Source of the DNA: a virus
Reading direction: 5' to 3' (one strand)
Virus record (IMG/VR): IMGVR_UViG_3300025913_000080
Coordinates: 1 to 34,652 of that record
DNA length: 34,652 nucleotides
The position numbers and the translations under genes were made by a program. The notes below the pieces were generated by a model, which was not told where the DNA came from, ran no database searches, and saw nothing but the letters and a program-made list of their open reading frames with translations. This document shows positions 2,585-30,340 of the stretch, one piece after another. Position 1 is the first letter of the stretch. The number at the start of each line of letters is the position of its first letter.

Positions 2585-2853
2585 CCATGCTGGAGAGACT
2601 CGCGAGGGAAGAGCATGAGGGCTTGCGTCGGGTGTATCCTGGCCCGTCCTACGCCCCAGCGCCTGCTTGGGAAAACATGGCGGAGAGTTATCGCGTCGGT
2701 CGCATCCTAGGTGTGCGCCTGCTCTTAGAAGCCCTCCGCAACCCGGATGAGGGGATGCTGGAGGCGATCGGCGTTGGGCCTGATGAGACCGGATACGCCG
2801 AATGGCTGTACAGAGCCTACTTCGACCACATCCTCAATGAAGAAGCGGAATGA
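2581..2853 (+). CDS. Small unrecognised early protein
   Basis: The product has 90 residues and starts in an ATGA overlap. Predicted to be mostly helical, with a central WENMAESYRVGRILGVRLLLEAL helix and a C-terminus YFDHILNEEAE. The final codons (2830-2848) are duplicated exactly at 3605-3623. There the same frame would read ILNEEAGAE and then run into the ATG of the NusG-like gene. It therefore appears that this gene was once directly coupled to the NusG-like gene and that the cassette at 2854-3604 was inserted between them. Function unknown. Confidence 0.7.
   Translation: MTMLERLAREEHEGLRRVYPGPSYAPAPAWENMAESYRVGRILGVRLLLEALRNPDEGMLEAIGVGPDETGYAEWLYRAYFDHILNEEAE
2830..2848 (+). repeat. 19-bp direct repeat, left copy (cassette boundary)
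   Basis: Identical to 3605-3623. It encodes the C-terminal ILNEEA of the gene ending at 2853, and the TGA of the leftward cassette's last gene begins 6 bases later. The pair brackets the XRE cassette. Confidence 0.85.
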
Positions 2854-3051
2854 TCACAGCGCCTCCAAATCCTCGATCGTCATGGCTCCGCGCTCCATCA
2901 GCCGCAGGAGCAGCGCGACGCTACGAGGCACAGGAACGGCCCCGGTGGCCCAACGGCTCGGGGTCGACTTGTCGGTCTCCAGCAGACGCCCAAGGCGCGC
3001 CTGGGAGAGCCCGAGCGCGTCAAGGGTGGCGCGGTAGTCTTTCGAGGTCAT
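2854..3051 (-). CDS. XRE/Cro-type helix-turn-helix regulator
   Basis: The product has 65 residues. LDALGLSQARLGRLLETDKS followed by TPSRWATG is a clear helix-turn-helix of the Cro/CI type (about residues 9-37): helix two contains SQARLGRLL and the recognition helix covers KSTPSRWATG. The rest is a short helical tail, so this is a minimal DNA-binding protein without a cleavage domain. It is last in a leftward three-gene operon, its ATG overlapping the previous stop. It ends immediately against the stop of the rightward gene at 2853. The two palindromes at 3546-3604 are natural candidates for its operators. It may be the lysogeny switch or the regulator of a mobile cassette. Confidence 0.8.
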   Translation of the reverse strand: MTSKDYRATLDALGLSQARLGRLLETDKSTPSRWATGAVPVPRSVALLLRLMERGAMTIEDLEAL

Positions 3052-3257
3052 GCGACGGGCCGATACTGCTCGACAAGTTCGAGCCCGTCACCTTCGATAA
3101 CCTCGACCAGTGCGGCGCCCAAAGGGATCAGCGCCATCTTGGGCCAGTCACGCAAGCGCCCGTCTTTGCCATCGGTCGCGTGGCTGGCCCAAAAGCGCGC
3201 TCCGGCATGGGGACTATCCGGCCCCCATTGCCACAGGACGTTCAGCAGGAGGGCCAC
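3048..3257 (-). CDS. Unrecognised small protein of the XRE cassette
   Basis: The product has 69 residues. GTG at 3257 follows directly after the TAG of the preceding gene, and the stop overlaps the ATG of the XRE gene. The sequence has an aromatic N-terminal part (LWQWGPDSP, ARFWASHATDG), then PKMALIPLGAALVEVIEG, which looks like a short beta/hydrophobic segment. No family is recognised. Its place between two coupled genes suggests it works with the regulator, but this is only context. Confidence 0.5.
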   Translation of the reverse strand: MALLLNVLWQWGPDSPHAGARFWASHATDGKDGRLRDWPKMALIPLGAALVEVIEGDGLELVEQYRPVA

Positions 3258-3518
3258 CTAAGCGGCCCTCGCTGCCAGGGTCTCGACCTGAGCACGGGCG
3301 ACCCACCAGATGCGCTCCAGGTTGTTGAACCAGCTCAGTTCGGAACGAGTGTAGCCATACTTCGCGAAGGCGAGCAGTTCGGTGCGCTTCGCATTGCTGG
3401 CATTGGCGCAGGCGCGGCAGACCGCCGCCCAAGCTTGAACGGGGCGCTCGTTGCTCTCGCCGCGGATGATGCGGCCCTGAAGAGTGACGGCTTGTTGGTA
3501 GAAGCCTTCGGCGGTCAT
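3258..3518 (-). CDS. First gene of the XRE cassette, unrecognised
   Basis: The product has 86 residues, with ATG at 3518 about 24 bases downstream of a strong promoter -10 (3542-3547) and a GGAG ribosome site a few bases before it. The sequence is helical and Ala-rich with paired Cys (AAVCRACANASNAK) and a Trp-rich C-terminal part (SELSWFNNLERIWWVARAQ). No known family. As the promoter-proximal gene under two operator-like palindromes, it should be the most strongly regulated product of the cassette. Confidence 0.55.
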   Translation of the reverse strand: MTAEGFYQQAVTLQGRIIRGESNERPVQAWAAVCRACANASNAKRTELLAFAKYGYTRSELSWFNNLERIWWVARAQVETLAARAA

Positions 3519-3541
3519 CTGCGTGCTCCGTTGATGTCCCC

Positions 3542-3569
3542 ATCATACGCATTATGCGGAACGCGTCAA
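3542..3569 (-). promoter_or_regulatory. Sigma70-like promoter of the leftward XRE cassette
   Basis: Read on the minus strand, TTGACG (3569-3564) and TATGAT (3547-3542) are separated by 16 bases. The spacer contains the perfect palindrome CGCATTATGCG (3548-3558), so a regulator bound there would block polymerase. It drives the gene starting at 3518. Confidence 0.75.
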
Positions 3570-3604
3570 CGATGACTTGTGACCTTTCTACGCATTTTGC
3601 GGAA
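3546..3604. promoter_or_regulatory. Pair of operator-like sites
   Basis: Two 16-bp sites differ at one base: TACGCATTATGCGGAA (3546-3561) and TACGCATTTTGCGGAA (3589-3604). The core of each is a CGCA...TGCG palindrome, and centres are about 43 bp apart, close to four helical turns. The first sits between the -35 and -10 of the leftward promoter. The second ends directly at the right copy of the 19-bp repeat. Likely bound by the XRE protein at 2854-3051. Confidence 0.65.
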
Positions 3605-3623
3605 ATCCTCAATGAAGAAGCGG
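3605..3623 (+). repeat. 19-bp direct repeat, right copy (cassette boundary)
   Basis: Identical to 2830-2848. Downstream it reads GGGCGGAATGA, so the duplicated tail would end in an ATGA overlap with the gene at 3631, like other joints of the operon. Confidence 0.85.
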
Positions 3624-3630
3624 GGGCGGA

Positions 3631-4059
3631 ATGACACCCATCTACGCGCTATACGTCCAACACGAACGCAAGGCTGCAGAGGAGCTCGCGGAAGCCGGCT
3701 TCGAAGCCTGGGCGCCAACCTACAAGCGCTTGCGCCAACCGAGCCAGAGAAGCCGCCAGATCGCCAGCCTAATCGAGGCTCCGCTCTATCCCGGCTACGT
3801 GTTCGCCAGGATTCCGCCTGAGCGCATCTCGCACGCCAAAGCCTGCGAGCGCGTGATCGGCATCGTCAGCAGCAACGGCTTTCCGGCTGTGATCCCCGAG
3901 GATGTATTCGGCGGTGTGGTGGCGCTGGTGCTCTCGGGTAGGCTGGACGAGCGCTTGCCCTGGACGAAAGCCAGGCCGCGCGGCGTGCGGCGTCGTGGGC
4001 TTTCGGCGCTCAACGAGTGGTTCGAACTGGTGGGCCAGAACCTGCGACAAGCAGCCTGA
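3631..4059 (+). CDS. NusG/RfaH-like antiterminator (NGN domain only)
   Basis: The product has 142 residues. The N-terminal half matches the NGN domain of NusG, RfaH and UpxY-type elongation factors: IYALYVQHERKAAEELAE, then FEAWAPTYKRL, an Arg-rich segment, the hallmark APLYPGYVFARI (about 50-61), and VIGIVSSNGFPAVIPEDVF. In this family the domain binds the RNA polymerase clamp and suppresses pausing. The C-terminal part (about 100-142) shows no KOW-like motif and is basic (KARPRGVRRR), so it is not a full NusG. It lies at the end of the early operon and directly before the structured leader of the virion operon, which suggests operon-specific antitermination of late genes. That link is inference. 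Confidence 0.75.
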   Translation: MTPIYALYVQHERKAAEELAEAGFEAWAPTYKRLRQPSQRSRQIASLIEAPLYPGYVFARIPPERISHAKACERVIGIVSSNGFPAVIPEDVFGGVVALVLSGRLDERLPWTKARPRGVRRRGLSALNEWFELVGQNLRQAA

Positions 4060-4071
4060 GCCATAGGGCTT

Positions 4072-4108
4072 GCGTTCCGAAACGAACGCCACCACAATAT
4101 GCGGCGTT
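4072..4108 (+). promoter_or_regulatory. Two mutually exclusive hairpins in the late leader
   Basis: GCGTTC (4072-4077) can pair with GAACGC (4084-4089), while AACGCC (4085-4090) can instead pair with GGCGTT (4103-4108). The two stems share bases and cannot coexist, an attenuator-like arrangement. A further small hairpin, TGGC-CTA-GCCA, lies at 4128-4138. No U-tract follows any of them. Confidence 0.5.
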
Positions 4109-4146
4109 TATAGCCTGATCCGCTCACTGGCCTAGCCAGAAGATGC

Positions 4147-4195
4147 TTAGGGCGTGACAGCCCCATACACGGGGCAGAGCGAAGCTTTGCCCTAA
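4147..4195 (+). ncRNA. Three-way-junction RNA element in the late-operon leader
   Basis: TTAGGGC (4147-4153) pairs with GCCCTAA (4189-4195), closing two stacked hairpins: GCCCC/GGGGC (4160-4164 with 4171-4175, loop ATACAC) and AGAGC/GCTTT (4176-4180 with 4184-4188, loop GAA, one G.U). Only GTGACA (4154-4159) is unpaired at the junction. There is no following U-run, so it is not a simple terminator. It lies 112 bases before the first virion-operon ATG and just after the NusG-like gene, so a nut/put-like antitermination site or a pause element is plausible. The rest of 4060-4307 holds no gene that I can see. Confidence 0.6.
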
Positions 4196-4307
4196 CAGAC
4201 CGCGCACCGACAGGCCCTCACCCCCCCGACGCGATTCCTCCCCTAGGCGCGTCCCATTGAGCCAGTCGTGTGCGCGACCCATCAACTCAGCCTCTCAAGG
4301 AGCCACT

Positions 4308-4721
4308 ATGGCAACCGTTGACCGAGTGTTCCTCAACAAGCGTGGCGACGTGACTGCGATCCGCTCCAAGGTCGCCGCGGGCGTCACCCTGACCATGGCG
4401 GCAGGCGCCACCACCACGCTCAGCTTCACGCCACCGGAGGGTTCGCGTGTCTCGGCGATCAAGTGGCACACCGCCACCACCTTCACCGGCTCCCCGACCA
4501 ACATCTACCTGACCGTAGGCAAGACCGCCGGCGGACAGGACTACGTCGCCAACACCGACGTGAAGACCGCCACGGCCCCGACAGCGGCATCCCTGGTCGC
4601 CATTGCCGACTGGGCGTCCTGGCCCGTGCAGGCGATGTTCTGCACGCTCACGGCCAACGGCGGCACCAACCCGGCTGGAACCTGCGTGGTCGAAATCGAC
4701 TACGCCCCCGCCAACCCGTAG
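4308..4721 (+). CDS. Putative small virion protein (decoration or head-associated)
   Basis: The product has 137 residues. The ATG at 4308 is preceded by AGGAG at an ideal distance, so it is preferred over the upstream in-frame ATG at 4257. The sequence is Thr/Ala-rich and beta-like: VTLTMAAGATTTLSFTPPEG, YLTVGKTAGGQDYVAN, TCVVEIDYAPANP. It resembles the products of 6606 and 7094 in composition. First gene of the virion operon, before the terminase. A head decoration or other structural role is plausible, but no family motif is present. Confidence 0.55.
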   Translation: MATVDRVFLNKRGDVTAIRSKVAAGVTLTMAAGATTTLSFTPPEGSRVSAIKWHTATTFTGSPTNIYLTVGKTAGGQDYVANTDVKTATAPTAASLVAIADWASWPVQAMFCTLTANGGTNPAGTCVVEIDYAPANP

Positions 4722-5039: not shown

Positions 5040-5065
5040 GACGGCCTCAGTGCCGTTGAGTGCCG

Positions 5066-5359
5066 ATGGCTGCGCCGAAAGGAACCAAACCGCCTGGCGG
5101 CTCTCGAAAGGGTCGCCCAAACAAGATCACGGCGGACATCAAAGCCCTCGCCCGAGAACATGGGGCAGCGGCGATTAAGGAACTCCTCCGCATCGCCACT
5201 GCGGCCGAGAACGACAGCACCCGCGTCGCGGCGATCAAGGAACTCCTCGACCGCGGCTATGGCAAGGCAACCCAGCCGATCAGCGGCGATGACGATGGCC
5301 CGCCTGTCCTGGTGGAGCTGAGGCGCACGATTGTCCGTCCTGGACATTCCAACCGCTGA
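5066..5359 (+). CDS. terS: Putative terminase small subunit
   Basis: The product has 97 residues from ATG 5066 (a GTG two codons upstream at 5060 is the alternative). It begins with a basic GTKPPGGSRKGRPNK tail, then a helical domain: ADIKALAREHGAAAIKELL, RVAAIKELLDRGYGKATQP. This GGSRKGRPNK...LLDRGYGKxxQ layout is typical of a phage protein found immediately upstream of large terminases, and a DNA-recognition role fits the position. It overlaps the large-subunit gene by 29 bases, so translation is probably coupled. Assignment rests on that pattern and gene order. Confidence 0.7.
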   Translation: MAAPKGTKPPGGSRKGRPNKITADIKALAREHGAAAIKELLRIATAAENDSTRVAAIKELLDRGYGKATQPISGDDDGPPVLVELRRTIVRPGHSNR

Positions 5360-6605
5360 AGTCTTCGAGCCGCTGCTAGCACCCGCCCGCTACAAGGGCG
5401 TGCATGGCGGTCGGGGATCTGGAAAGTCGCACTTCTTCGCCGGCCTGCTGGTTGAGGACAGCCTCTATCACAAGGGCTTGCGCTCGGTCTGCATCCGGGA
5501 AGTCCAAAAGACCCTGGCCCAATCGGCGAAGCTGCTGATCGAGGACAAGATCAGGGAGTACGGCCGGGCCTGCGACTTCCGCATATTCAACGACTGCATC
5601 GAAACGCCCGGCGACGGGATCGTGATCTTCAACGGGATGCAGGACCACACAGCGGAGTCGATCAAGTCGCTGGAGGGTTTCCACCGGGCCTGGGTCGAAG
5701 AGGCCCAGACGCTCACCGACCGCAGCCTGACGCTGCTTCGCCCGACCATCCGCGATGAGACCTCGGAGATTTGGGCGAGCTGGAACCCGAGGCGCAAGGT
5801 CGATGCGATCGACAAGTTCCTACGCCACAACGCGCCGCAAGACGCGACGGTGATCCAGGCCAACTGGCGAGACAATCCCTGGTTTCCGAAGGTGCTCGAA
5901 GCCGAGCGCCTACACGACCTGGAGCACTACCCCGACAGATACGACCACATCTGGGAGGGCGACTACGTCAAGGTGTTCGAAGGAGCCTACTTCGCCAAGC
6001 AGCTTGCCGAGTGCAGGCGCGAAAACCGCATCGGCAAGGTTGCCGCTGACCCGCTCCTCCCGCGCAAAGCCTTCTTCGATATCGGGGGCTCTGGCGCAAC
6101 GGCCGACGCCAACGCGATCTGGATCGTCCAGTTCGTCGACCGCGAAATCCGGGTGCTCGACTACATCGAAGGCCAGGGCCAGGTCCTGGGCTACTACGCC
6201 GCGGAGCTGAGAAAGCGCGGCCACGGCGACGTTCAAATCCACCTGCCCCACGACGGGGTCAACGAGAACAACCTCACCGGCAAGCGCTACGAGGACCATT
6301 GGCGCGAAGCCGGCTTCGACGTTCAGGTCATCAAGAACCAGGGCAAGGGCGCGGCGATGATGCGGATCGAGGCGGTCAGACGCCTCCTGCCGCGCATCTG
6401 GTTCAACGAGGCCACCACGGAAGCGGGCAGGGACGCCCTCGGCTCCTACCACGAGCGCAAGGACGACGAGCGCAACGTGGGCCTCGGCCCCGAGCACGAC
6501 TGGTCAAGCCATGCCGCCGACGCCTTCGGGCTGATGTGCGTCGCCTACGAAGAGCCGCGCAAGAAACACGAGCGGCTGGAAATCCCGAACTACGGAGCGG
6601 TGTGA
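5331..6605 (+). CDS. terL: Terminase large subunit
   Basis: The product has 424 residues and is the ATP-driven DNA packaging motor and headful nuclease. TTG at 5331 gives MSVLDIPTAEVFEPLL. Walker A is GGRGSGKS (26-33), Walker B HRAWVEEAQ (118-126) with its acidic pair, and a coupling motif WASWNP lies at 148-153. The nuclease domain shows FFDIGG (Asp250), PHDG (Asp308) and a final HDWSSHAADAFG (389-400), the RNase H-like acidic triad of PBSX-type (Terminase_3) enzymes. Length is normal for the family and nothing appears truncated. Confidence 0.95.
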   Translation: MSVLDIPTAEVFEPLLAPARYKGVHGGRGSGKSHFFAGLLVEDSLYHKGLRSVCIREVQKTLAQSAKLLIEDKIREYGRACDFRIFNDCIETPGDGIVIFNGMQDHTAESIKSLEGFHRAWVEEAQTLTDRSLTLLRPTIRDETSEIWASWNPRRKVDAIDKFLRHNAPQDATVIQANWRDNPWFPKVLEAERLHDLEHYPDRYDHIWEGDYVKVFEGAYFAKQLAECRRENRIGKVAADPLLPRKAFFDIGGSGATADANAIWIVQFVDREIRVLDYIEGQGQVLGYYAAELRKRGHGDVQIHLPHDGVNENNLTGKRYEDHWREAGFDVQVIKNQGKGAAMMRIEAVRRLLPRIWFNEATTEAGRDALGSYHERKDDERNVGLGPEHDWSSHAADAFGLMCVAYEEPRKKHERLEIPNYGAV

Positions 6606-7900: not shown

Positions 7901-10021
7901 ATGGCGCTGAGTGACACCGAACTGCTGAGGATCGTGGGCGAGGAGCGCAAACGCTCCATCGGCTTCGATCAGACGCAAGAGCTGCGAGACGAGCGCGAAA
8001 AGGCGCTCGACTACTACAAGGGCGTGATGGACGACGTTCCGTCCCTGCCCAACAGGTCCAAGGCGGTCTCCACCGATATCTCCGATGCGGTGGAGACCAT
8101 CCTGCCCGATCTGGTGGAGATATTCACCGGCGGGGATGACGTGGCGACGTTCATCCCTCGGGGGCCTGAGGACGAAGAGGGCGCGCAACAGGAGACCGAT
8201 TACACGAACTTCGTGGTGTTCCAGCAGAACGACGCGTTCCTGACGTTCTACACCCTGTTCAAGGACGCCCTGCTCACCAAGACCGGCGTGGTGAGCTACT
8301 GGCGCGAGGACTACGACGAAGAGACCGAGACGTTCACCGGGATTGATCAGCAGACCGCCGCGGCGCTCGCAAGCTCGGCCCAGGTCGTCAGCCAGGAAGA
8401 GGGCGAGGAGCCCGGAACCGTCAACGTGACGGTGAAGAAGCCCGGCAAACCGTCCAAGGTCTGCATCAAAGCCTGTGCGCCGGAGGATTTCACGGTCGCG
8501 CAAGACACCGTGGTTCTCAGCGAGGGGACCTATTGCGCGATGAGAGCCCGTCCGCGGGCTCAGAAGCTCAAGGCCGATGGCTACGACGCGGACATTGTCG
8601 ACAAGCTGCCTCAGTACAGTTCGAACACCGATGACGAGACGCAGCAGGCCCGGGACGGAAGCGGGGAGCACACCGCTGGCCAGCAGAACGACGGCGCGAC
8701 CCACGATCTGCGCCAGGTGGAAACCGTCACCCACTACATCCGCCTGGCGGACGACAACGGGACGCTTCAGCTCTGGAAGGTGATTACGGGCGATCAGGAG
8801 ACGATCCTGATCGACAAGCAGAAGGTCAACCGCATCCAGATCGCGGCTCTGACGCCGTACATCGTCACGCACAGGTTCTACGGCCGGTCGATGGCGGACA
8901 TGCTGTTCGACCTCCAGCGGATCAACACCGCGATCACCCGGGGGTATCTGGACAGCATCTATTTCGCGCTCAACCAGCGGATGGTTGTGAACATGCAGGC
9001 GGCGAACGAGTACACGATTTCCGATCTGCTTCGGAACGAACCCGGCGTACCGATTCGGGCGAAGTCGGGCGAGGCGGTTATGCCCGTCCAGGCCGGCGGA
9101 GCGGGCTTCAACGGGCTCGATGCCCTGGAGTTCTTCGCCACCAAGGTTGAGCAGCGCACCGGGATCGCCCGCAACGCTCAGGGGCTCAATCCGGACACGC
9201 TGCACGACACCGCGAAGGGCGCCCTGACCCTGATGAACGCGGCTCAGCGCCGGGTGAGGCTGATCGCCCGCATCTTCGCCGAGACCGGCATCAAGGATCT
9301 GTTCCTCGGTGTCCACGCCCTCCTGAGGGAAGGCCCGCAACAGCAGATCGTCAGCCGCCTCAGGGGCAAGTGGGTTCCGATCGACCCGACCAACTGGGGC
9401 GAGCGCGAGGACATGTCGATCGAGATCGGCATCGGGTCTGGAGGCAAGGACGCGGAGCTGATGTCCCTCGGCGCTCAGATGGGCGTGATGGAGAAGATCA
9501 TCGAGGCCCAGGGCGGACCTCAGGGACCGATCGTCAAGGCCAAGAACATCTACGCCATGGCCAAGCGGTTCATGGAGAAATCGGGGAACAAGAGCCCGGA
9601 ACTGTTCCTGAGCGACCCGGGCGATGCGGAAATCCCGCCCCCACCGGACCCGAACGCCCACAAGGCCCAGGAAGCGCAGATGACCTTGCAGCTCCAGGCG
9701 GCGAAGAACCAGGGCGACATGCAACTCCAGCAGGCCAAGGCGCAGTCGGACGCCCAGATCGCCGCGCAGAAGAACGCCAACGACCTCAACATCGCCACGG
9801 CTCAGATGCAGAACGAGCACAGCCTGAAGAGCCAGACGGCCCAGGCCGAGTTGGACATGAAATGGCAGATCGCCCAGGCCGAACTGGCGATGAAGCGCGA
9901 GATCGCGCAGCAGGAATTGGCGTCGAAGCACGCGCTCGCTCAACAGGGCATCGCGTCCAAGGCGGCGACGGACCAGGCCGGGATTGAGGCTCAGGTCCGT
10001 GTCGGCGGCGAGGCGGGCTGA
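7901..10021 (+). CDS. Portal protein (P22-like)
   Basis: The product has 706 residues and forms the dodecameric channel at the packaging vertex. The N-terminus (ELRDEREKALDYYKGVMDDVP, SDAVETILPDLVEIFTGGDD) and central region (TPYIVTHRFYGRSMADMLFDLQ followed by TAITRGYLDSIY) match large portal proteins of P22-like short-tailed phages. From about residue 580 the C-terminus becomes a long Gln/Ala-rich coiled coil (MTLQLQAAKNQGDMQLQQAK and similar repeats), comparable to the C-terminal barrel of P22 portal. It follows terminase and small structural genes, and its stop overlaps the next ATG (TGATG). Confidence 0.9.
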   Translation: MALSDTELLRIVGEERKRSIGFDQTQELRDEREKALDYYKGVMDDVPSLPNRSKAVSTDISDAVETILPDLVEIFTGGDDVATFIPRGPEDEEGAQQETDYTNFVVFQQNDAFLTFYTLFKDALLTKTGVVSYWREDYDEETETFTGIDQQTAAALASSAQVVSQEEGEEPGTVNVTVKKPGKPSKVCIKACAPEDFTVAQDTVVLSEGTYCAMRARPRAQKLKADGYDADIVDKLPQYSSNTDDETQQARDGSGEHTAGQQNDGATHDLRQVETVTHYIRLADDNGTLQLWKVITGDQETILIDKQKVNRIQIAALTPYIVTHRFYGRSMADMLFDLQRINTAITRGYLDSIYFALNQRMVVNMQAANEYTISDLLRNEPGVPIRAKSGEAVMPVQAGGAGFNGLDALEFFATKVEQRTGIARNAQGLNPDTLHDTAKGALTLMNAAQRRVRLIARIFAETGIKDLFLGVHALLREGPQQQIVSRLRGKWVPIDPTNWGEREDMSIEIGIGSGGKDAELMSLGAQMGVMEKIIEAQGGPQGPIVKAKNIYAMAKRFMEKSGNKSPELFLSDPGDAEIPPPPDPNAHKAQEAQMTLQLQAAKNQGDMQLQQAKAQSDAQIAAQKNANDLNIATAQMQNEHSLKSQTAQAELDMKWQIAQAELAMKREIAQQELASKHALAQQGIASKAATDQAGIEAQVRVGGEAG

Positions 10022-11263: not shown

Positions 11264-12226
11264 ATGACCGCCGCGACCAACAGCGTTACCACCCTCATCA
11301 ACATCGGCAACCGGGAAGACCTGGAAGACGTGATCTATCGCGTCGCTCCGGAGAAGACCCCGTTCATCTCCAACATCGGCTCGTCCAAGGCCAACGCGGT
11401 CTACCACGAATGGCAGACCGAAACCCTGGCGACCCCGGTCTCCACCAACGCCCAGCTCGAAGGCGACGACATCGCGATCTCCGCGTATGACGCCGCCAAC
11501 CTCACGACCCGCGTCGGCAACACCTGCCAGATCCTCCGCAAGACGTTCATCGTCGCGCGGACCGCGGAAATCGTGGAGAAGGCCGGGCGCGACTCGGAAA
11601 TCGCCCGCCAGAAGGTGATCAAGGGCATCGAGCTGAAGCGCGACCTGGAGATGCGCGCCATCGGCAACTACTCGGCCGTGGCCGAATCCGGCGCCACCAC
11701 CCGCAAGCTCGGCGGGGCGCTGGCCTGGATCGTCACCAACGACTCCCGCGGCGCCACCGGCACTGACGGTGGGTTCTCGGCCACGCCTGGGCCGACGCTG
11801 GCCGGCAACGGCACGCAGCGGACCTTCACCGAAGCGCTGGTCAAGGCGGCGATGTCGACCACGTTCAGCTCGGGCGGCACGCCGACCCAGGCGTACATGG
11901 GGCCGACCCACAAGCAGCAATTCTCGGCCTTCACCGGTATCGCCAACATCCGCAAGGATGCGGGCACGGGGATGGCCACGATTGTGGGCGCCGCCGATGT
12001 GTACGTGTCGGACTTCGGCAACCTGACCCTCATCCCGCACCCGTACGGCCTGACCCGCGACTGCCTGATCATCGATCCGGACATGTGGGGCATCGCCACG
12101 CTGGACGGAACGAAGGTCGCGCAGATGGCCAAGACCGGCGACGCCGAGAAGTACATGCTGACCATGGAGAAGACCCTGGTCTGCAAGAACGAGAAGTCCT
12201 CCACCGTCGTGGCGGACCTGACCTAA
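11264..12226 (+). CDS. Major capsid protein (SU10/DUF5309-like)
   Basis: The product has 320 residues. LEDVIYRVAPEKTPFISNIG near the N-terminus, EWQTETLATPV, and the helical ARTAEIVEKAG...GIELKRDLEMRAIG segment match the SU10-type (DUF5309) HK97-fold capsid family. The C-terminal half has FGNLTLIPHPYGLTRDCLI, a characteristic strand segment of this family. It directly follows the scaffold gene, with AAAGGAAATAGGCG before the ATG. It is followed by two very strong hairpins (12226-12282) before the next gene. Confidence 0.9.
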   Translation: MTAATNSVTTLINIGNREDLEDVIYRVAPEKTPFISNIGSSKANAVYHEWQTETLATPVSTNAQLEGDDIAISAYDAANLTTRVGNTCQILRKTFIVARTAEIVEKAGRDSEIARQKVIKGIELKRDLEMRAIGNYSAVAESGATTRKLGGALAWIVTNDSRGATGTDGGFSATPGPTLAGNGTQRTFTEALVKAAMSTTFSSGGTPTQAYMGPTHKQQFSAFTGIANIRKDAGTGMATIVGAADVYVSDFGNLTLIPHPYGLTRDCLIIDPDMWGIATLDGTKVAQMAKTGDAEKYMLTMEKTLVCKNEKSSTVVADLT

Positions 12227-29095: not shown

Positions 29096-29308
29096 GGTTT
29101 TACAGCCACGAAAAGTCCTCTAACGATTTCAAAGGGCCGGAGATCGGGCGTTTTGGACGCATCTCTTTGAGTCCGCTCAAGTCTATTCCGGTTTACACCC
29201 AGGAGGTCGGGGGTTCGAGCCCCTCGCCGCCCACCACGTTGTTTTATAACACGAAACGACCATTTCCGCGAGCGCCTTCAGGGGCTCGGTTTTACAGCCG
29301 TTTTACAC
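29096..29308. promoter_or_regulatory. Integrase arm-type site candidates around attP
   Basis: GGTTTTACAGCC occurs at 29096-29107 and again at 29288-29299. Related GGTTTACACC (29190-29199) and GTTTTACAC (29300-29308) lie at the core edge and beside the integrase stop. Four TTTACA-containing sites on both sides of the tRNA-like core fit the arm-type layout of lambda-like attP. A small hairpin, TTGAG/CTCAA, lies near 29167-29180. Confidence 0.5.
29198..29235 (+). other. attP core: 3' end of a tRNA gene
   Basis: The sequence has a T-arm with loop TTCGAGC (29214-29220) and stems GGGGG/CCCTC (one G.U), a 3' acceptor strand GCCGCCC, discriminator A and encoded CCA (to 29235). No 5' half of the tRNA precedes it. 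Phage genes lie on both sides and the integrase gene ends 67 bases away, so this is most likely the attP core matching the 3' end of a host tRNA whose acceptor begins GGGCGGC. Confidence 0.75.
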
Positions 29309-30340
29309 TTTCCCGTTCCGGCCGCGTTCCAGGTCCATGCGCCGGATACGATCCAGGAGGATTTCGTCACGCTTCACGTAGGCGTTGACGAGCCGTTCGA
29401 CCTGTTCCTCACCCCATGTCATAATCTCGGCAATTTCCCGGATGGAGAAGCCGGCGCGATAGAACATGGTCGCGGCGGTTCCCCTCAAATCGTGGAAGTG
29501 CAGGGGGATGCGCTCGCGGGCCAGCTTGTCTGGCGTCGACGGCTCGGCGCGCACAGCCTTGTTCCAGGAAGCGCCGAAGCCAGTCCCCCATGGCGTCCCC
29601 GCTTCGGTCGTCAGGACCGTCGTGGCGCGCTTGGGGATGCTGTCCAGCAACTCGCGCAGCTCGGCGTAGATCGGAATGAGCGTCGTCTTCCGGTGGCGGC
29701 TCTTGCCCGTGCTGATCTCGATCGCCAGCGGGCGGACATGCGACCACGACAGCCGCAGCAGATCGCCGCGGCGCAGGCCCGTGAGCGCAGCCAGGCGAGC
29801 CGCTCGGTAAACTTCCGGTGAGGCTCGCCGTTCAAGCTCGGCGAAATGCTCCGGCTCCCAAATCTTCGCGGCTCGGTTGGCCTTGTAGAGCCGGGGGATG
29901 TGCTTGCACGGCTCGCCGCTCAGAAGCCCCTCGGCTCGCCCGTAGGTCAGCAGCCGGGAGAACGCCTCCAGGGCCACGTCGGCGCTCCTGGGCGCGCTGG
30001 CGTAGCCGTCTCGCCAACGCCTAATGGCCGGGACCGCTTTGGGCTGGTCGAAGGCGCGAAGGGGCAGGGCGCCGAACTTTTCCTGGATCCGATCCAGCCA
30101 GCGCACCCATTCCTTGCGGGTCTTGTCAGAGAGCCCCTTGTAGGCCGCCGAAGCCTTGTAGGCGGCGATGAGCCCTGAGAGCTTGGACTTGTCGCCCTGG
30201 ACGCGCCCAGCGCGCGCGGCGGCCACTTCCTGTAGAAACTCTTCCGTGTCGGGCTTGGCCTTGAGCCTCGGACCGCCGCGCCAGGCGTAATGGTAGGTCC
30301 GCCCCTTGCTGACGACGGTGTGGACGCCCCTAATCCGCAT
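29303..30340 (-). CDS. int: Tyrosine recombinase integrase
   Basis: The product has 345 residues and recombines attP with the host tRNA attB. The N-terminus is an arm-binding domain (TYHYAWRGGPRLKAKPDTEE), then a core-binding helical domain (about 50-150). Catalytic residues are visible: Arg190 in TGLRRGDLLRLSW, Lys213 in TGKSRHRK, His283 and Arg286 in HFHDLRGTAATM, Trp309 in MTWGEEQ and nucleophile Tyr321 in RLVNAYVKRDE. Full length. The start overlaps the small gene upstream by 11 bases, and the 3' end touches arm-type repeats. Confidence 0.92.
   Translation of the reverse strand: MRIRGVHTVVSKGRTYHYAWRGGPRLKAKPDTEEFLQEVAAARAGRVQGDKSKLSGLIAAYKASAAYKGLSDKTRKEWVRWLDRIQEKFGALPLRAFDQPKAVPAIRRWRDGYASAPRSADVALEAFSRLLTYGRAEGLLSGEPCKHIPRLYKANRAAKIWEPEHFAELERRASPEVYRAARLAALTGLRRGDLLRLSWSHVRPLAIEISTGKSRHRKTTLIPIYAELRELLDSIPKRATTVLTTEAGTPWGTGFGASWNKAVRAEPSTPDKLARERIPLHFHDLRGTAATMFYRAGFSIREIAEIMTWGEEQVERLVNAYVKRDEILLDRIRRMDLERGRNGKV

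Follow-up and report, generated by a model that had tools for sequence, protein, structure and literature searches.

Specialised NusG paralogues are known from virulence, capsule, antibiotic and conjugation operons, and the review section consulted (PMC7819879) names no phage case. At the ops pause, RfaH of Enterobacteria recognises a small hairpin of the non-template strand, formed by a GGTA loop and its C3:G8 pair (PMC5995543). LoaP of Bacillus velezensis, encoded near its operon, needs a hairpin in the dfn leader RNA for read-through of a NusA-dependent terminator (PMC12691694), and UpxY of Bacteroides acts on the leader of its own operon (PMC7819879). In phages, the lambda Q gene is the last early gene, followed by a leader with a terminator (tR') and the late operon, and the leader RNAs put of HK022 and nut of lambda modify polymerase. 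Here we describe a phage locus that has features of several of these systems.

The window, which is the whole stretch of DNA analysed, is a 34.65-kb virus record from a temperate podovirus-like phage, with the following genes and leader.

3631..4059, plus strand: phage NusG paralogue with an NGN domain (residues 1-102), without KOW, with a C-terminal tail (PF02357, phrog_6386, AlphaFold2/Foldseek)
4060..4307, plus strand: untranslated late leader, 248 nt, no coding ORF, z −3.8
4308..4721, plus strand: first late gene; also present in relatives L038 and L043, which have no NGN gene before it
5060..5359, plus strand: terminase small subunit, TerS (phrog_2538, weak; phrog_15261)
5331..6605, plus strand: terminase large subunit, TerL (PF04466, phrog_3717)
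7901..10021, plus strand: portal protein, SU10/LUZ24-type (PF23899, phrog_1216)
11264..12226, plus strand: major head protein, the major capsid protein (phrog_1328)
29303-30340, minus strand: integrase

The virion operon that the original prediction had placed behind the leader was thus identified by its TerS, TerL, SU10/LUZ24-type portal and major capsid genes. A sister contig, IMGVR_UViG_3300009093_000095, extends 4.5 kb further leftward than the window, and in this extra sequence a cI-like gene lies divergent from a cro-like gene (weak HTH matches). Since the divergent cI-like and cro-like genes are followed rightward by early genes, the NGN gene, the leader and the late genes, in a lambda-like layout, the window NGN gene stands in the place of lambda Q. 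The window matches the sister contig from base 17 onward (sister position 4500). Its left end departs from the sister contig and its bases 1-23 match a nearby stretch in inverted orientation, so that this end is probably an assembly artefact.

The same slot holds different proteins in relatives. In L038 and L043, which have the first late gene in common with the window, it holds another protein without a Pfam match, with a terminator-like hairpin behind it in L043. One Camelimonas genome contains both a prophage with a non-NGN slot protein of unknown family (L111) and a prophage with an NGN gene (L198), and the start of a DnaB-like protein matches in both. The slot therefore exchanges regulators. 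Candidate proteins in this slot of NGN-less relatives (L038:1137-1700, the L043 gene ending at 2488, L111:2048-2692, L015:4369-5010 and L035:2141-2809) gave no Pfam match in the three of the five that were searched, and they may be antiterminators of the Q type in phages of Alphaproteobacteria. In L198, the NGN gene is followed downstream by a minus-strand gene (5610-5834) for an Acb2/Tad1 hairpin-domain protein (PF24729, 52.5 bits), a member of a known anti-defence family.

Three small minus-strand genes (3258-3518, 3048-3257 and an HTH-like gene at 2854-3051) form a cassette between an early gene (2581-2853) and the window NGN gene. Together with the 19-bp direct repeat ATCCTCAATGAAGAAGCGG that flanks it (2830-2848 and 3605-3623), the cassette spans 2830-3623, and it looks like a moron inserted at the junction of the early gene and the NGN gene. 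A minus-strand promoter (TTGACG-16-TATGAT, 3569-3542) overlaps the palindrome CGCATTATGCG at 3548, and a near copy, CGCATTTTGCG, lies at 3591. Because neither the left nor the right part of the sister contig (L217, L218) yielded a copy of the motif, the palindrome is probably the cassette's own operator.

The product of ORF 3631-4059 meets the criterion for an NGN domain of the NusG/Spt5 superfamily (PF02357, 41 bits against a cut-off of 22.2) and matches PHROG 6386, 'transcription antiterminator'. AlphaFold2 models residues 1-102 as an NGN domain (pLDDT about 90); a linker and a C-terminal helix of low confidence follow, and the model contains no beta-barrel. In agreement with the prediction of an NGN protein lacking KOW, the product has no KOW match and no KOW-like frame occurs in 3901-4307; the phage relatives of the protein have kept this domain. 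A KOW-less NGN protein could still modify polymerase but should lack the KOW contacts with NusA, the ribosome or Rho, which is a prediction and not a result. The frame is intact, with a strong third-position GC bias. In a Foldseek search with the model, the best solved matches were RfaH structures, including RfaH on the ops-paused polymerase, and NusG was also matched. None of the NCBIfam tests for described paralogues was met, whether for the RfaH equivalog (TIGR01955, 23.2 bits against a cut-off of 144.5), LoaP (NF033641, 13.1 against 125) or UpxY (NF033644, 34 against 100), the last being the best NCBIfam match. By sequence, the nearest relatives are NGN proteins of phages that carry the leader element described below (L214/L249, L269 and L240), together with the phage-located L198; the element-bearing phage proteins reach 36.6 bits, against 26.9 at best for NGN proteins of polysaccharide operons.

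The 248-nt leader behind the NGN gene (4060-4307) is non-coding, as had been proposed. It folds better than its shuffles (z −3.8), and only 1 of 115 other 248-nt windows in a genome-wide tiling is as low. Besides the junction at 4147-4195, two of its regions deserve mention.

4072-4108, plus strand: two mutually exclusive hairpins proposed in the original prediction, GCGTTC/GAACGC (−7.0 kcal/mol) and AACGCC/GGCGTT (−7.8 kcal/mol)
4196..4307, plus strand: C-rich, G-poor stretch (50 C and 25 G of 112), a possible Rho-loading region, the role of Rho being inferred

The alternative hairpins at 4072-4108 do exist as pairings, but nothing supports a function or a switch, and no counterpart was found in relatives. 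Likewise, the three-way junction proposed at 4147-4195 has pairing potential (7, 5 and 5 bp, −18.1 kcal/mol) but is not the minimum-energy fold, as an extended form of its hairpin P2 reaches −24.4 kcal/mol; in folded prefixes of the leader, its hairpin P1 is the first to form. No intrinsic terminator was found in 4190-4307, and a stop in this leader is probably not intrinsic. The base composition of the last 112 nt would suit Rho, a possibility that we only infer. Rho is opposed by RfaH-type factors. Since the leader and its junction occur in only one other contig, the sister (99.98% identical over 10 kb), covariation was not testable there, and leaders of other phage NGN genes were compared.

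With NGN genes as the entry, leaders behind other phage NGN genes were examined for a common element. NGN genes lie directly before HNH, TerS and TerL genes in prophages with several terminase types (L205, L207, L208, L210-L212, L214 and L215, judged from gene order and sequence), whereas further NGN genes of similar hosts belong to polysaccharide operons. The leaders of L214 and L215 have GTGCGYAAGCTATGYC in common, with a shortened form in L213. The element consists of a covarying hairpin, P1, followed by an ops-like part, P2 (GUGC-GYAA-GCUAUG), both inside a short closing stem, P0. The P2 search pattern AGTGCGNAAGCTATGYC matched 62 of 2.9 million viral contigs, and in 55 of these the match follows the stop codon of a same-strand NGN gene at a distance of 98-163 nt. 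Three more (L221, L237 and L251) have less than 250 nt of upstream sequence, and the remaining four (L258, L272, L273 and L276), which lack the P1 hairpin and any phage late context, are chance matches. These counts include redundant contigs; the distinct elements number 46.

In the alignment of the 46 distinct copies, P1 is a 7-bp stem (GCCCUGA/UCAGGGC) with 97.5% of cells paired and double changes in four of its seven pairs. Its covariation score is 0.276, against 0.154 ± 0.012 in shuffles and 0.00-0.17 (at most 0.168) with slid partners, and P1 was not part of the search pattern. For P0 (GGRC/GYCC), 80% of cells are paired and the covariation is weaker. P2 is invariant among the collected copies apart from a loop base; as P2 was the search key, its conservation and part of that of P0 are partly due to ascertainment. 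Of 48 distinct leaders, 36 have an intrinsic terminator behind the element, where shuffles give 3.75. TerL lies downstream in 29 of the 30 loci with more than 3.5 kb of downstream sequence, and in nearly all loci the element is 0.9-3 kb upstream of it. With one mismatch allowed, each phage has a single site (24 of 24 records). In Rhizobiaceae, the element was found in 6 of 297 genomes, at seven sites, all with an NGN gene. For most element-bearing viral contigs the host is not known; where a host is named, it belongs to the Rhizobiaceae, with one Nostoc record as the exception.

The element cannot be recognised from folding energy alone, since other NGN leaders give a mixture of fold z-scores, from −5.5 to +1.7. 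Among the NGN leaders examined, that of L205 (1402-1663, reverse strand) folds most strongly (z −5.5), with a very long terminator hairpin and no recognisable P2, and may represent another site class.

As an out-of-sample test, annotated phages were searched with one NGN protein, from L220, and not with the element. The search returned five named phages in six records, namely Agrobacterium phage Rivra, Sinorhizobium phages phi2LM21 and phi3LM21, Rhizobium phage PPF1 and Nostoc phage JY10, whose annotators name the gene NusG or antiterminator. In all five, the element lies behind the NGN gene (covariance model R1, E-values of 8e-10 to 3e-18; all E-values of the covariance models are rough), and a terminator-like hairpin with a T-run lies behind the element. 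In Rivra and PPF1 the P2 loop is UACA and not GNAA, and the loop therefore varies. A study of phiLM21-like prophages reports that every one of them has an antiterminator ORF, located next to HNH where the early region ends (PMC12429752). A DNA search of named phages with an element-bearing locus gave no match, nor did a search of 385 genomes drawn from the class Alphaproteobacteria. TerL relatives did not serve as a route to NGN relatives, 73 of 75 records lacking PF02357. The original prediction would have been refuted by junctions without the NGN gene or by the reverse. Wherever upstream sequence existed, no true element was found to lack an NGN gene, but the reverse does occur: in L068, L091 and L150 an NGN gene stands in this slot and no element can be recognised behind it; either other sites exist in these phages or their elements have diverged.

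The window junction matches the family element in order and spacing and, with some divergence, in P2 sequence, and its parts are as follows.

4147..4195, plus strand: three-way junction, probably a divergent form of the NGN-associated leader element (descriptor of core, P1 and P0; models R1 and R2)
4147..4153, plus strand: P0 5' arm, TTAGGGC, which pairs with 4189-4195 (family P0, GGRC/GYCC)
4160..4175, plus strand: P1 hairpin, GCCCC-ATACAC-GGGGC (from sequence; the family P1 covaries)
4175..4189, plus strand: ops-like P2, CAGAGC-GAA-GCTTTG, with a putative pause at T4188/G4189 (family, CAGTGC-GYAA-GCTATG)
4189..4195, plus strand: P0 3' arm, GCCCTAA (from sequence)

The element lies 116 nt behind the NGN stop, with TerL 1.2 kb downstream, which meets the family position (98-163 nt, before terminase). 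The family arrangement of a P1 that abuts P2 inside a closing P0 is also met, with a P1 of 5 bp, shorter than in the family, and a P0 of 7 bp; a P1 of at least 5 bp with a P0 of at least 7 bp occurs at 0.0076 of random sites. The window P2 is the unique best match to the family P2 consensus on both strands, with about 0.002 expected per 248 nt by chance. A descriptor (a P2-like core, an abutting P1 of at least 4 bp and a P0 of at least 4 bp), written post hoc with the window known, gave two matches in 4.74 Mb strand-bases of the other loci and the window: the true site of L215 and the window junction, its only match in the window. The top match in the window of model R1, built without the window, is the junction site, at a weak 9.6 bits (E = 0.39). 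Model R2, in which P0 is modelled, places the junction second to a chance match elsewhere when applied to the whole window (8.1 bits, E = 0.97) and gives it E = 0.008 in the leader alone; the inclusion of P0 did not raise the window score. In L213, the site GCGGAAGCTATGTCC behind its NGN gene is scored at 9.4 bits by the same model, no better than the window, and a low score therefore does not exclude a divergent member.

It is conceivable, though unlikely, that the family system is real and that the window junction is a chance structure, the KOW-less NGN protein acting elsewhere or being in decay. The weak model scores would fit this, as would the divergence of the window from the family: a GAA triloop in place of a GNAA tetraloop, a 5-bp P1 without an inner hairpin, a protein without KOW and a leader without the downstream terminator, a trait that is not universal in the family. 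The triloop core alone is not diagnostic either; a scan with it for close window-type relatives found it in 14 other viral contigs, none of them with an NGN gene nearby. Against a chance origin, P0, P1 and P2 are all present in the right position and order, the combination is unique in the window and nearly so in the 4.74 Mb, and the original prediction had picked out the same 49 nt (4147-4195) from structure alone. The intact, strongly GC-biased NGN frame also speaks against decay. We therefore consider it likely that the window junction is a divergent member of the family element.

The family system resembles RfaH/ops in its NusG paralogue, in the predicted fold of the window protein, which is closest to RfaH, and in P2, whose GC-GYAA-GC followed by UAUG resembles ops, GGCGGTAGCGTG. 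P2 is not ops itself, as it differs in sequence, and what it shares is the small hairpin and the geometry of a T-G pause. Unlike RfaH, the factor is phage-encoded and adjoins its target, with one site per genome; the site has a covarying RNA hairpin, P1, before the ops-like part, its loops are GNAA, UACA or GAA, and the relatives face intrinsic terminators. With LoaP and the dfn leader, it shares a NusG paralogue encoded near its operon and a leader with an RNA hairpin, a pause and an intrinsic terminator (PMC12691694), whereas the LoaP hairpin has a UNCG tetraloop and serves antibiotic operons of Bacillota. UpxY is likewise a NusG paralogue acting on its own operon's leader (PMC7819879), but its site lies upstream of upxY, in capsule operons, and the window protein scores below its cut-off. 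Lambda Q, with qut and tR', has the same genomic setting, and processive antitermination would be expected in both; Q has no relationship to NusG, and its loading takes place at the late promoter, in contrast to a NusG paralogue whose site is about 0.1 kb downstream of its own gene. HK022 put and lambda nut are also phage leader RNAs that modify polymerase, but put acts without a phage protein and nut needs N and Nus factors.

We conclude, with a probability of roughly 0.78, that the virus uses a self-encoded NusG paralogue as a late-gene antiterminator in the place of lambda Q, loaded at an ops/LoaP-like site. The proposal that a NusG paralogue controls the late genes through an RNA or ops-like leader element is thus supported for a family of phages, in which the NGN gene, the hairpin with the ops-like element, usually a terminator, and terminase follow one another. 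The gene, its position, the element with its covariation, the linkage to NGN and the terminators in most relatives are established at the level of sequence. Antitermination by the NGN protein is inferred, without an experiment, and so are pausing, binding and read-through, and the assumption that the divergent copy of the window works in the same way with a Rho-type stop.

In the mechanism that we propose, the NGN gene would be the last gene of the early rightward operon, and polymerase fresh from it would enter the leader, make the RNA hairpin P1 and then meet the ops-like pause sequence P2. The element would thus present an RNA hairpin, then the GC-GYAA-GC hairpin between P1 and the presumed pause, then UAU/G. 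The bases around this presumed pause, G at −11, T at −3, a pyrimidine at −1 and G at +1, agree with the elemental pause consensus. The end of the family P1 is about 15 nt upstream of the presumed pause (13-14 nt in the window), so P1 may sit at the mouth of the RNA exit channel while P2 is in the bubble. The NGN protein may dock at P2, probably as a non-template DNA hairpin as in RfaH/ops, and/or at P1, as LoaP does at its RNA hairpin. It would then stay on the polymerase and carry it past the following terminator into the HNH/terminase and virion genes; this loading and read-through are inferred by analogy with RfaH and LoaP. Before the NGN protein accumulates, early transcripts would stop in the leader, and the arrangement would therefore work as a timer.

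An attenuator or riboswitch-like RNA that works without the NGN protein, for example in NGN autoregulation or in response to a host factor, seems improbable. A strong structure followed by a terminator is attenuator-like, and the window leader has alternative hairpins; however, the sequence of P2 hardly varies and closes with a pause-like UAUG, which sets it apart from a simple attenuator, we saw no conserved antiterminator that could pair with the terminator stem, and where upstream sequence was present no true element was found without NGN. We give very little weight to a packaging (cos/pac) site or terminase-binding DNA dyad kept beside terminase and not NGN: the proximity to TerL in nearly all loci would suit it, but the terminase types differ among element loci (TerL with HNH; gpA-like with Nu1-like TerS), the element tracks the NGN gene at a tight 98-163 nt and occurs in no TerL relative without NGN, transcription terminators follow it, and P1 covaries as RNA. 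A role for the NGN protein as an activator of host genes or of capsule operons of the host, in the manner of UpxY and with its position incidental, is equally doubtful, for despite the UpxY match and the NGN paralogues in polysaccharide operons of the same hosts, the window protein is nearer to the element-bearing phage proteins, and phage NGN genes repeatedly lie directly before terminase genes, across terminase types.

Returning to the NusG paralogue as late-gene antiterminator, no description of the cis element was found in the literature searched, and twelve of the element loci gave no match to it in Rfam 15. We think it likely that these phages represent a class of late-gene control that has not yet been described, at work in temperate phages with mainly alphaproteobacterial hosts, whereby a NusG paralogue occupies the lambda-Q slot, an RNA hairpin and an ops-like pause site are combined in one junction whose loop diversifies along with the protein, and one polymerase-bound factor times the whole virion operon; the window would be a minimal, KOW-less form. 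If this is right, phages have in NusG paralogues a third kind of late antiterminator, in addition to Q and N-type systems, and its cis site is open to immediate testing in isolated phages. The combination of a LoaP-like RNA hairpin with an ops-like pause in one site is relevant to the question of how RfaH-type factors came to use either DNA or RNA as their signal, and the GNAA, UACA and GAA variants of the loop make recognition specificity testable. The element would also give annotators a marker for the early/late boundary in rhizobial prophages.
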